Shown: piece by piece, positions 23,818 to 28,109 of the stretch | How the letters are laid out: each line of letters starts with the position of its first letter | How positions within the stretch are numbered: the stretch's first letter is position 1 | DNA from: Desulfocapsaceae bacterium | Lineage (GTDB): Bacteria; Desulfobacterota; Desulfobulbia; Desulfobulbales; Desulfocapsaceae | Direction of reading: 5' to 3' | Length of the DNA: 45,097 nt | NCBI GenBank assembly: GCA_030653035.1 | Contig: JAUSAB010000006.1 | Coordinates: forward strand, 1-45,097 | Program-made: the position numbers and the translations under genes | The notes under the pieces: model-generated | The model's database searches: none | What the model saw: the letters and a program-made list of their open reading frames with translations, nothing else | Told to the model about the DNA's origin: nothing

Positions 23818-25029
23818 CTAGTTCGTGACAGCTCCCAATAATTCAGCCAGATGCAGTACCTGCACCCGACTGTCCGCAACCTCTACCGCCAGGCGCCACT
23901 GCATGAGACAACCGGAACAGGTGCTGGTGATCACATCAGGTCTCAGGGCCAACACCTTTGCCGCCAGGGTATCACGAATCACCGCGGCGATATCGGGCGC
24001 ACCAATATGGAAAAGCCCGCCCTGACCGCAACATTCGGGGCCATCAGGGAGTTCAAGCAACTCCAGATCCGGGTTGCGGCCAAGCGCCTGGCGCGGCTCT
24101 TCGATGATCCTCGGTCCTTGGCGGAAATGACAGGGATCATGATAATAAACACGGACCTTTTTCCCCCCGGCTGCCTGTTTCGCGAGTCCTGGCGGCAGAT
24201 GCTGATCGAGAAAACAACTGAACTCCAACAGACGTGCGAACAAAGCCTCAGCCTTGCTCCGCCAGAGCTGGTCATCTGGAAAAAGTTCCCCGTATCTGCG
24301 CAGATGCGCATAGCAAGAGGCGCAGGAAACGAGAATTGGCCCAGGGCTCTGTTCCAGCGCGATAATATTTTTTCGGGCGTGCCGCTGAGCCTCACCTCTG
24401 TCCCCTGCTGACAGGCCAGCCAGACCACAACAGGACAAACCGTCAGGGACATGCAAGGCATATCCAAGACCGGCAGCAAGAGAATAACAGGATGTGGCAA
24501 TGTCAGGGAAGAGATAGCGAGCAGCGCATCCGGGGAAATAGGTCAGCTGCTCTTTCGGCCGGAGGTCATCAGGAAATGTGTTTTTCTGAACCGGCAAAAC
24601 CGGCATTGCCCCCACGTCCTGCTGAAACAGGGCCAGACGCAATCTAAGCCCACTGTCTGCCGGCAGATATCTTGACAAAAATTCTGCTCCAACCCGGCCC
24701 AGCACCCGCAAGGCAGAAAGAGTCTCAGGATGGACAAGCGCCTTGCGGGCCAGATACTTCTCAAAGCCATGGGCACCATAAACGGAAGGAAAGGCAGCAC
24801 GGGCATCCACCACCTCCCGGCACACATCTATCCCTCGCGGACAGACTGCGGAACAGGCCCCGCAGAGAAGACATTTGGAAAAGATATCCTCAAACACAGT
24901 GCCTTTACCATGCAACTCAGGGATCTGGGTTAGATGGATCTTGCCCCGGGCGGTATGGGCCTCTTGACCAGTAACCCGATAGACCGGGCAGACCACGGAA
25001 CAAGCCCCGCATTTAGCGCAGGCATTCAC
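23818..25029 (-). CDS. GlcF-like (Fe-S)-binding oxidoreductase subunit, N-terminus possibly lost
   Basis: A 403-residue cytoplasmic electron-transfer subunit like the iron-sulfur subunit of glycolate or lactate oxidases. Two 4Fe-4S sites are CAKCGACSVVCP (residues 3-14) and CLLCGACSAVCP; two CCG domains follow with CCGLAGLSAG and ECCGQGGLF. The first cluster begins at residue 4, whereas relatives usually have some 20 residues before it. The start is GTG at 25027-25029; an in-frame TAA sits two codons upstream and no ribosome site is visible. The 5' end abuts a 250-base palindromic repeat, so its original start may have been displaced. The usual FAD-linked partner (GlcD) is not adjacent. Confidence 0.85.
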   Translation of the reverse strand: MNACAKCGACSVVCPVYRVTGQEAHTARGKIHLTQIPELHGKGTVFEDIFSKCLLCGACSAVCPRGIDVCREVVDARAAFPSVYGAHGFEKYLARKALVHPETLSALRVLGRVGAEFLSRYLPADSGLRLRLALFQQDVGAMPVLPVQKNTFPDDLRPKEQLTYFPGCAARYLFPDIATSCYSLAAGLGYALHVPDGLSCCGLAGLSAGDRGEAQRHARKNIIALEQSPGPILVSCASCYAHLRRYGELFPDDQLWRSKAEALFARLLEFSCFLDQHLPPGLAKQAAGGKKVRVYYHDPCHFRQGPRIIEEPRQALGRNPDLELLELPDGPECCGQGGLFHIGAPDIAAVIRDTLAAKVLALRPDVITSTCSGCLMQWRLAVEVADSRVQVLHLAELLGAVTN

Positions 25030-25282
25030 AATTTAAAATCAAATGATCTCGCAGCGAAGCCTGCAAGACGCCAAAAAGTCATCAAAGAGAGGGATGAAAT
25101 AGCTAAGCGAAAAGGCCCAAAGACGAGGCGCGCAAATCCTGAGGAATGCGGGCCGCTCTTTAACCATCCATGGAGCGAGCGGCACTGGGGCGTCCTTGCC
25201 CTGCGCGTACAATAAGTACGCCGCAGTGACGAAGGATGCAGTGCAACGAAGTCTTTGGGCCTTTCCGCGACGCCATCGCCCA
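25030..25282. repeat. Large palindromic repeat between prfB and the glcF-like gene
   Basis: The whole gap is made of nested inverted pairs: AAAGGCCCAAAGAC (25111-25124) with GTCTTTGGGCCTTT (25251-25264), perfect over 14 bases; GCCGCTC with GAGCGGC near 25151-25180; and CTGCGCGTAC with GTACGCCGCAG (25201-25225, one bulge). This is the architecture of a dispersed cruciform or MITE-like element. It touches the glcF-like start codon on one side and the prfB stop codon on the other. Confidence 0.65.
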
Positions 25283-26393
25283 TCATTTTTCCCACAGCAG
25301 ATAGGCCTTGATAAAAGGATCGAGATTGCCATCAAGCACCGCATCCACATTGCCGACCTCGAAATCAGTACGATGATCCTTGATCAAACGATAGGGTTGC
25401 AGAACGTAGGAACGGATCTGACTGCCCCAGGAAATCCCTTTTTTGTCGCCGTGCAGATCCTCATTGGCCTCGGCCTGTTTTTCCCGACCCAGTTCATAGA
25501 GGCGGGAGGTCAGCATCTTCATGGCCGTATCCTTATTGCGATGCTGGGATCGCTCATTCTGACACTGCACCACAATGCCGGTGGGCAGATGGGTAATCCG
25601 AATGGCCGAATCGGTTTTATTGATATGCTGTCCACCGGAACCGCTGGCCCGGTAGGTATCAATCCGCAGGTCTTTATCGATGATATCCACCTCAATGGTA
25701 TCATCAAGCTCAGGCATGACCATGACCGAAGAAAAGGAGGTGTGACGCCGACCACTGGCATCAAAAGGTGAGATGCGCACCAGGCGGTGGATCCCCACCT
25801 CTGAGCGCAGATAGCCATAGGCATTATGCCCTGTGACCATGAGGGTCACACTTTTGACCCCGGCCTCATCACCGGGCAGATAATCAAGGATATCCGCCTT
25901 AAAGCCTTTTATCTCGGCCCAGCGCAGATACATGCGCATAAGGATACTCACCCAATCCTGGGCCTCTGTGCCGCCGGCGCCGGCATGGATATCCATGATC
26001 GCGTTATTGGCATCGTGTTCTCCGCTGAGCATACACTCGACTTCCGCAAGAACAATACGCTCCTGCAACGGGTCAAGACTGGCGGCCACCTCATGCTCCA
26101 TAGCGGAGTCATTATCTTCCGTGGCCAGTTCCAGAAGCATCTCCAGCTCATCCAGCTCTTCCCATTTGCCTTCCCAGCCCTTGACGATTTCCTGGATTTG
26201 ACCATGTTCTTTATGCACCTTCCTGGCAACATCGGCATCGTTCCAGAAATTCGGGGCAAGAGTCTGCTGCTCCAGCCGTTCCAGTTCATCTTTCTTATGA
26301 TCTAAGTCAAAGATGCTCCTTCAAGGCCAGCATCCGCCTTTTGAGTTCCTGTAGCCTTTGCCTCGATATTGCGGCGCCTGTTTCTGTTGACAT
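25283..26393 (-). CDS. prfB: Peptide chain release factor 2, with programmed +1 frameshift
   Basis: RF2 ends translation at UGA and UAA. The gene reads in two frames. The first 28 codons from the ATG at 26391-26393 end at CTT TGA (26307-26312); a +1 shift at CTTTGAC leads into the main frame and a 369-residue product. The core shows the SPF tripeptide that reads the stop codon in RISPFDASGRRH and the GGQ motif in SGSGGQHINKTDSA. GGGAG precedes the ATG. The 5' part has a shorter apparent GTG start at 26218, which would lose the N-terminal helical domain. It is the last gene of corC-lnt-prfB. Confidence 0.96.
26306..26320 (-). promoter_or_regulatory. RF2 autoregulatory frameshift site
   Basis: On the minus strand AGGAGCATCTTTGAC places an internal Shine-Dalgarno-like AGGAG three bases before CTTTGAC, the classic arrangement of the prfB site. 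Low RF2 lets the ribosome slip +1 at the in-frame TGA, so RF2 controls its own synthesis. Confidence 0.95.
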
Positions 26394-26432
26394 ACCAACT
26401 CCCTGTAAAAATATTATAACTATATGTAAATT

Positions 26433-28109
26433 TTAATTATTTCTCGCATTAAGACACCGCTCAGGAAAATGCCTCGACCGGGGATTGCGAAGGACAATCC
26501 AGATCAAAAAACCCATGACCACCCCCAGACATAAAGGTGCAAACAGATACCCCCAGCGCACAAACCAGGTCTCTTCGTCCATAAGCACAACCTCGGCACT
26601 TTCAGCCCAGGGTTCAAACAGCGGAGATACTCTTCGCACCCGGCCCAGAGGATCAACAAATCCAGAGAAACCGGTATTTGCCGCCCGCACCAGACTACGT
26701 CGGGTTTCAACCGCCCGCAACACCGTCATGGCCAGACTGTGATCCGGGGCGCTGGACCGGCCATACCAGGCATCATTGGTCAGATTCACCAGGATATTGG
26801 CCTTGACGCCTACCCATTTGCGGGCAATCTCCGGGAAAATAGATTCAAAACAGATCAATACCCCAATCCTAGCATTCTGACAAGCAAGGGGACGCTGAAT
26901 CACACCCGGACTGAAGTCTCCTATTGCCTCCACTACCGGGGCCAGAAACGGCAGAAATTTTTTCAAGGGGACATATTCGCCAAACGGCACCAAATGGTTT
27001 TTTGAATATCTGCTCGTGATCTGACCACTGGCATCAAAAAGAAGAGCGCTGTTATAGTAGCGTCTCAGCTTCTGGCCACTACCGCCATCCTTGGCTCCCG
27101 CGGCATTAAGCCGTCCCTGGCCGTCACCACTCCCACCATCCTGTTCAACCCAAGGAGAGCCAGTGAGCAGAGATATTTGTCCCTGAACCGCAAGATCACG
27201 CACTGATTGCAGTAAAGGATGGGCAACAGGATAAAATGGCAAGGCTGTTTCAGGCCAGACGACAAGCAAGGGATGGCTCCGCTCAATAAGTCCCCGACTC
27301 TGGCCAATATAGTTCGCCAGAGTCTCCTTCTGCAAGTCAGGAGACCATTTCAAGTCTTGCGCAATATTGCCTTGAACCACGCCAATACGCATGGTTTCAC
27401 TGGCCTGCATCTGTCGTCCGATCTGCTGCCACCGCAGGGATGAATACAACGCAACAACGCTGCAGACCATAAGGACAGGAACAAGCCAGGTAAGCTGCCC
27501 TCTTTTACGAGTAGTCGACAGAAACAACATGGCCATCAGAGTATTGATCAAAACCAGACAATAGCTCAGGCCGTAATGGCCCCACAGATCCGCCGACTGG
27601 ATCAACCATGGCACATTGGCCAGCGCATACGCGGGATCCATCCACGGAAACCCCGTGAACAGAAAAGAGCGGCACCAATCGAGCGCAACCCAGAGACAGG
27701 GAATAACCCACAGGGCAATTTGCCAAGGAAGCCTAACGAAGAATAAACGGGCAAGCAGCGCAAAAACTCCCATATACAGACTCATATACAGGGCCAGGAG
27801 GACAAGAACCGAAATAGACAAGAAAGGTGGCAAGCCACCATAACGACCCAGAACAATGACAATCCAATAAAGCAGCACAAGAAAATGAAACAGACCGGCC
27901 AACACCCCGCAACTAACCGCCTGTCGCGCTGTTTTCGTTTGAATAACAGCCAATAAAAAAGGGACAAGGGCGATAAAAAGCAGGGGCCAGAATCCGCCGC
28001 CGCCAGGAAAGGAGAGCCAAAGGAGACCTGCGGTCAAAAGCGCCACCAGTATTTTCTGCCAAAACACGGTACCTGTTGCTATCACCGCACCGGAATCACA
28101 CCCCTTCAT
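26433..28109 (-). CDS. lnt: Apolipoprotein N-acyltransferase
   Basis: A 558-residue inner-membrane enzyme that adds the third acyl chain to lipoproteins. An N-terminal set of about six hydrophobic segments (to about residue 225) is followed by a nitrilase-fold domain and a final C-terminal membrane segment. The catalytic triad is visible as Glu in WPETALPFYP, Lys in SKNHLVPFGEYVP and Cys in LICFESIFP. The domain contains a Gly/Ser-rich insert near WVEQDGGSGDG that looks like a loop expansion. The ATG at 28109 overlaps the end of corC by 14 bases. corC(ybeX)-lnt pairing is the same as in E. coli. Confidence 0.95.
   Translation of the reverse strand: MKGCDSGAVIATGTVFWQKILVALLTAGLLWLSFPGGGGFWPLLFIALVPFLLAVIQTKTARQAVSCGVLAGLFHFLVLLYWIVIVLGRYGGLPPFLSISVLVLLALYMSLYMGVFALLARLFFVRLPWQIALWVIPCLWVALDWCRSFLFTGFPWMDPAYALANVPWLIQSADLWGHYGLSYCLVLINTLMAMLFLSTTRKRGQLTWLVPVLMVCSVVALYSSLRWQQIGRQMQASETMRIGVVQGNIAQDLKWSPDLQKETLANYIGQSRGLIERSHPLLVVWPETALPFYPVAHPLLQSVRDLAVQGQISLLTGSPWVEQDGGSGDGQGRLNAAGAKDGGSGQKLRRYYNSALLFDASGQITSRYSKNHLVPFGEYVPLKKFLPFLAPVVEAIGDFSPGVIQRPLACQNARIGVLICFESIFPEIARKWVGVKANILVNLTNDAWYGRSSAPDHSLAMTVLRAVETRRSLVRAANTGFSGFVDPLGRVRRVSPLFEPWAESAEVVLMDEETWFVRWGYLFAPLCLGVVMGFLIWIVLRNPRSRHFPERCLNARNN

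Follow-up and report, generated by a model that had tools for sequence, protein, structure and literature searches.

The 253-nt gap between prfB and a GlcF-like gene in a 45,097-nt stretch of Desulfocapsaceae DNA (positions 1 to 45,097 of contig JAUSAB010000006.1; the whole stretch is called the window here) is, on good support, a MITE that has decayed; young members of its family carry GATGG...CCATC ends. An equally well supported reading of the locus is a single insertion into the prfB stop codon (T^AA) in an ancestor of 11 of the 14 sampled genomes in which the locus was found. The subfamily to which this copy belongs has probably been kept as a domesticated hairpin between cistrons, although several observations given below speak against that last step. 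The features of the gap are collected in Table 1; genomes and loci are given as G and L numbers.

Table 1. Features of the gap and of its two neighbours, in window coordinates
Feature	Position	Strand	Basis and remarks
Decayed MITE filling the gap	~25042..25284	-	Begins on the left at 25284 with GATGG, right boundary approximate; matches to related copies, 10 orthologous loci, fold
prfB stop codon TGA, its GA being the first two bases of the element	25283..25285	-	prfB C-termini in 13 congeners
Left hairpin arm with left terminal repeat	25251..25284	-	Short GATGGGC duplication at the extreme end
Right hairpin arm with internal pseudo-terminal repeat (...TTTGGGCCTTTTCGCTTAGCTATT)	25098..25124	-	Arm search, orthologue comparison
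Second, independent repeat nested in the upper stem	25150..25205	-	Hits loci that lack the outer element
Tail with a degenerate repeat at its right terminus, split by a small hairpin at 25046-25069	25042..25097	-	Orthologous tails; terminator scan
GlcF-like iron-sulfur protein gene, GTG start at 25029, untruncated	23818..25029	-	Congeners; Pfam CCG and Fer4_8
In-frame TAA 5' of the GTG, probably the displaced prfB end	25033..25035	-	Origin inferred

The gap runs from the stop codon of prfB on the minus strand to the GTG at 25027-25029. Its palindromic character, pointed out in an earlier note made from the sequence alone, was confirmed: the perfect 14-base arms at 25111-25124 and 25251-25264 widen to a pair of 18 nt at 94% (25107-25124 and 25251-25268). 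The gap folds better than chance, reaching -111.1 kcal/mol as minus-strand RNA (z -5.7) and -52.8 as plus-strand DNA (z -3.8), and none of 200 shuffles equalled either value. Rfam covariance models gave no match at E<=1 within positions 24000-26500, and a known RNA family was rejected for the element on that ground. A scan for intrinsic terminators (short GC stem and T run), which covers stems with short loops and leaves those with long loops outside, found one site where 0.7 was expected by chance, namely the small hairpin of the tail.

The palindrome was found to be multi-copy and nested, two features beyond the description in the earlier note. A search of its own genome returned 50 matches at E<=10, the window copy and weak matches counted, which rules out a single-copy palindrome. 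These matches form two families: some loci are hit by the two outer parts of the gap, others, at which the outer element is missing, by its middle 55 nt (query positions 121-176, window 25150-25205). One repeat is therefore nested in another. Among the 20 loci fetched around these matches (L039-L058), the nested repeat was matched 14 times, with a tandem arrangement of two copies in L049 (L049:160-3728); a module resembling it occurs in G004, where it sits within the left arm of the copy at efp. In the genus-wide search, for which the shorter G015 copy served as query, related copies were present, among the matches listed, in 13 of 17 genomes, with 17 matches in the genome of the window. With that query and among the matches listed, no element match was obtained in G003, G005, G007 (63% complete) and G009. 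Further elements of about 110 bp, with GATGGTCTCGCAAAAAGTC at both ends, were seen in G000 and G010 (L166, L167, L154, L155 and L157).

The young members of the family are represented by a burst in G014 (e.g., L059-L078, L149 and L246-L265), whose near-identical copies measure about 155 and 179 bp and are bounded by GATGGCGTCGTAAAAAGTC and GATGGTTTCGTAAAAACTC. Their end pattern was matched in 16 of 17 genus genomes, with 62 forward and 59 reverse matches in G014 (121), against one match in G002 and none in the other genus genomes for the reversed-pattern control. Both ends were present in 41 of 44 sampled young copies of G014, the remaining three having been left out because the right end was not located. 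The 6-mers flanking these copies were identical in 30 of 41 and agreed at 5 of 6 positions or better in 34 of 41 (shuffled pairs, 8.2); target duplications measure 6-7 bp, with a consensus near AANNTT. In addition, a transposon in G012 carries GATGGTCTCGTAAAAA at both ends, a duplication ACTCAT and a 580-aa DDE transposase, and a second one, in G001, shows similar ends with AACTTT as its duplication. The ends of the G012 transposon are those of the MITE, and its transposase scored best against the IS1182 family, at 161.3 bits under an NCBIfam family cut-off of 270 bits; the mobiliser is assigned as IS1182-related only. Related transposases were not found in the G000 and G014 assemblies, so that no mobiliser of the G014 burst was found in its own assembly.

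The young G014 copies thus show the terminal inverted repeats and target site duplications of a MITE, and the family lacks a transposase gene and shares its ends with autonomous elements, the transposons of G012 and G001. The window copy has a degenerate right repeat and an unclear duplication; the efp site and the prfB site of G015 are consistent with a duplication. Among nine old copies with a good right end, two show a target duplication at 5 of 6 positions, and the general loss of old duplications is one of the points that weigh against the reading of a retained hairpin.

The history of insertion can be followed at two genes. A search with the GlcF-like protein supplied 30 loci; in 28 of them prfB and the GlcF-like gene were both readable, with prfB upstream. 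The gap is filled by related elements with differing cores in ten congeners (the window included) and also in G016, it is free of the element in G003, G005 and G009, and the locus was not found in G007, G010 and G012. In a tree of prfB and the GlcF-like gene with 18 rows, from which G016 was left out because its GlcF-like gene is split between contigs, the ten element-bearing rows lie on one side of a branch with 95/95 support. RF2 ends in ...AYLLWEK in 13 of 13 congeners, followed by TGA in the ten with the element and by TAA in the three without it. The first bases of the element, GA, rebuilt the prfB stop as TGA, so that neither neighbouring protein was altered. The right-hand junction in G015, where CCATC is followed directly by GAAAATAAAAAATTGTG, fits a duplication of GAAAAT with displacement of a TAA, and the in-frame TAA that precedes the GTG in the window is most simply taken as such a displaced prfB end. 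RF2 reads UGA, and it is the final stop of the RF2 gene itself that the element turned from TAA to TGA. An apparent classical +1 frameshift was also noticed in prfB (26307-26393, minus strand; ATG at 26393, CTT-TGA-C after 28 codons), and the open reading frame from GTG 26218 therefore lacks the true N-terminus.

On the 3' side of efp, the element is present in 11 of 15 congeners with the gene. The empty site in G003, G005 and G009 consists of the stop TAA, 5-6 nt and the start of the next gene, and filled sites have AAGAATA 5' of the element and, in several genomes, an AAGAGTA-like sequence 3' of it; in G010, no element was seen within the 110 nt up to the contig end. At L303, in a genome (G052) of another family of the order, an element that starts with GATGGCTAAGCAAAAAG and ends with CTTTTTGCTTAACCATC lies at most 8 nt after the efp stop; it probably inserted independently at this gene end, in the opposite orientation.

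The comparison of filled and empty sites also corrects a misread gene start. The earlier note had placed an in-frame TAA two codons 5' of the adjoining GTG and a cysteine at residue 4 of the GlcF-like protein, both of which hold, the TAA lying at 25033-25035. From these features, with the GTG close behind the element and the TAA just upstream of it, it suggested that the element had inserted at, or recombined with, the 5' end of the GlcF-like gene and had removed about 20 codons. The insertion stands, its site is the stop codon of prfB, and a loss of codons is extremely improbable. Element-free G003, G005 and G009 read ATG-AAT-TCC-TGC where the window reads GTG-AAT-GCC-TGC, so that the start codon falls at the equivalent residue, with a slightly earlier start possible in G009 and G005, where a further ATG lies 3 and 11 codons upstream, respectively. 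Furthermore, in G021, which belongs to another genus and has a gap of 13 nt, a stop one codon 5' of a TTG forces the start at the equivalent residue. Pfam Fer4_8 is matched by the window protein from position 2 of the 68 in its profile, so that the protein has a complete first cluster domain. Together, these three observations led us to discard a truncated N-terminus. The name of the protein is uncertain because its best NCBIfam scores, 209.6 bits for LdhH and 123.7 bits for GlcF, are far below cut-off, all its NCBIfam scores being below; relatives at 67-90% identity are MAG records labelled uncultured Desulfobulbaceae, Desulfocapsa and similar.

The position of old copies relative to genes was examined on 81 copies, among the matches listed, which group by flank similarity into 39 sites. 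These copies were drawn from a similarity-ranked list, so that conserved copies were favoured, and this must be held against the reading of a retained hairpin. A uniform test was applied, in which an open reading frame of at least 100 codons had to stop within 3 nt of the left end of the element. The left end lay at the stop of such a frame in the same direction at 27 of 37 old sites among the matches listed, two of the 39 having been left out for lack of a left end that could be placed, versus 5 of 41 young G014 sites; 0.9% of background positions passed. The mirror test at the right end gave 2 of 37 old sites, among the matches listed, and 7 of 39 young ones. Old copies have decayed on the right, which makes that end difficult to locate; the control is weak for this reason, a point that counts against a retained hairpin as well. 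Young copies exceed the background, as expected from the fact that both ends of the element supply TGA. Part of the stops at element ends therefore arises by construction, a further reservation about retention. With gene calls scored for coding, a left end at a stop was counted at 26 of 39 old sites and at 0 of 41 young ones (among the matches listed), and the contrast from the uniform test was relied on in preference to this one. By these gene calls and among the matches listed, the neighbouring gene turns its 3' end to the element at 33 of 38 old sites on the left and at 9 of 37 on the right, and 26 of 39 old sites lie between two genes in the same direction.

At five sites the flanking genes are partners supported by Pfam, with gene names assigned by us: EF-P and a class II tRNA-synthetase-like protein (efp/epmA-like), a proteasome-type and an AAA protein (hslV/hslU-like), ClpS and Clp_N (clpS/clpA-like), a MoxR-like protein and DUF58, and two nitrogenase-component-like proteins. 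A role as the terminator of prfB was rejected, as the terminator scan lent it no support and related copies sit between partner genes; a complete terminator would be unlikely there, since the partner genes on both sides would both be transcribed.

The same pattern would be expected if the transposase of the old subfamily had preferred stop junctions such as T^AA or T^GA, so that insertion and not retention set the positions. Young targets do end in TT, followed in a number of cases by G or GA, which resembles TGA. However, young copies with the same type of end are not clustered at stops in one orientation, as the left-end and mirror counts indicate, and targeting leaves the conservation of the sequence unexplained; we regard it as quite improbable.

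Conservation was measured against neutral positions of the same loci. Set against fourfold sites in the gene upstream, the element is more alike on average in each of nine orthologous clusters (38 copies) and, pair by pair, in 72 of 77 cases; its core is more alike than the 26 nt that follow it in 70 of 77. The prfB and efp loci, which were gathered by gene and independently of element similarity, gave identities for arms, fourfold sites and tail of 0.839, 0.720 and 0.560 (prfB, 10 genomes) and of 0.886, 0.718 and 0.669 (efp, 11 genomes), with the arms above fourfold sites in 39 of 45 and 53 of 55 pairs, respectively. Gene conversion was considered as a means of keeping copies alike and rejected: orthologues (0.826) exceed paralogues within one genome (0.739), and paralogues match the level of copies whose sites and genomes both differ (0.742); conversion therefore does not explain the likeness.

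These results bear on the view that the element is selfish and without host function, harmful insertions having been purged and stop-codon copies having stayed because they supply a stop and allow no clean deletion. Young copies are indeed scattered, and the ends make TGA unaided. In the prfB copy of G011 (L017), moreover, the core has been largely replaced by an unrelated palindrome (CGCAGAGGCGCAGAGACGC...) with the outer arms remaining, a disruption that was evidently tolerated; given this loss of core in G011 and the repeat nested within the window copy, the copy at this site is not indispensable, which also tells against a retained hairpin. On the other hand, a selfish element is not expected to have core and arms more conserved than fourfold sites and its own tail, nor to show a strong orientation bias when both ends supply TGA. 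We therefore consider selfish persistence unlikely, though deserving of weight. Retention by selection at operon junctions is what orientation, position and conservation suggest when taken together: the subfamily appears to have persisted mainly where the hairpin starts at a stop, lies along transcription and separates genes of an operon, and purifying selection probably holds it there.

What is conserved was asked of 66 cores, L220 being left out. Paired positions of the stem are Watson-Crick in 87% of cases, versus 16-29% in slid controls, and 97 such cases differ from the commonest pair on both sides with pairing kept; palindrome-correcting replication errors could also yield such paired changes. 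Departures of the G-T and A-C kind number 75 and 79 counted per site and 79 and 99 counted per copy. As these are about equal, there is no sign of sense RNA being favoured, a constraint through G-U tolerance is not supported, and the reading of a retained hairpin is weakened. Conservation is 0.910 at unpaired and 0.907 at paired positions, with the central internal loop highest (0.950) and the apical loop lowest (0.810). Tandem G-A pairs could be drawn for the inner loop on its antisense strand.

The equal departures and the conserved loops make a DNA-level or protein-binding role possible, for instance a binding or extrusion site (nucleoid protein, gyrase, cruciform) that needs the inner motif as DNA. 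In keeping with this, unpaired positions are conserved like paired ones, the central loop most of all, and the exact inner motif, with the apical loop left free, was matched in 30 of the 395 genomes sampled from the phylum, which fall in 20 of 246 genera, with no match for the reversed control. Orientation relative to transcription matters at the old sites, however, and is needless for a symmetric DNA site; such a role has, in our estimate, a low probability. In G188 and G250 the inner motif lies within elements with quite different ends, CAGGCTGTTGAAAAA; on the left 6 of 19 of these elements meet a stop, on the right 1 of 19. It is conceivable, though we would not count on it, that a core with the exact inner motif, present in those 20 genera and borne by elements with at least two kinds of terminal repeat (GATGG and CAGGCTG), has been domesticated in the present genus between operon partners, starting at stop codons, the ends being exchangeable carriers and the core the part kept by the host.

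In the most likely, still hypothetical mode of action, the hairpin would stand between the cistrons in the mRNA, where the terminating ribosome could open it, and would tune the stability or processing of both cistrons, by analogy with what is reported for ERIC in Yersinia (PMC2229807). The nearest published systems, as far as the accessible text of the sources goes, are ERIC and the "short RNA elements" of Geobacter (PMC2700814). The latter (Gmet_R1005-type) are multi-copy intergenic palindromes like the family described here; their central palindrome GRCGTAGCGCTGCTACGCC resembles the core GRCGTAC...GTACGCC, a likeness of description that does not imply homology. One of them is reported inside the dapAB-dapL operon, and similar sequences in Desulfotalea psychrophila; the text available for them gives no rule of stop codon and orientation, no ends and no mobiliser, unlike the present family (PMC2700814). 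ERIC, also called IRU or RU-1, is described in enterobacteria as a co-transcribed intergenic hairpin of about 127 bp and is in this respect similar, but it has TA termini in place of GATGG ends, 6-7 bp duplications and an IS1182-related mobiliser (PMC2229807). By its termini, GATGG...CCATC and not TA, and not by sequence alignment, the present element falls outside ERIC. Chunjie of Geobacter uraniireducens, reviewed as an operon-internal MITE with copies of 178-235 bp, comes from the same broad bacterial group and is likened here by description, not sequence (PMC10969869). REPs and CGTC-tagged palindromes are described as short and mostly 3' of genes, and the present core has CGTC before its stem; REPs of 20-40 bp are, however, without the terminal repeats and duplications found here (PMC3733652), and an element of about 155 bp with terminal repeats does not belong with the CGTC-tagged REPs. 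No MITE family defined by stop codons was found in the literature searched, largely subscription-free listings. In these listings no precedent was seen for the rule of stop codon and orientation or for the neutral comparison.

Altogether, MITEs within bacterial operons are easily mistaken for tolerated debris. Filled and empty sites, orientation bias, the stop-codon rule and a neutral yardstick from the same locus jointly point to retention by selection. The effect of the hairpin can be measured at named junctions, prfB/glcF-like, efp/epmA-like, hslV/hslU-like and clpS/clpA-like, for the first two of which natural relatives free of the element exist.
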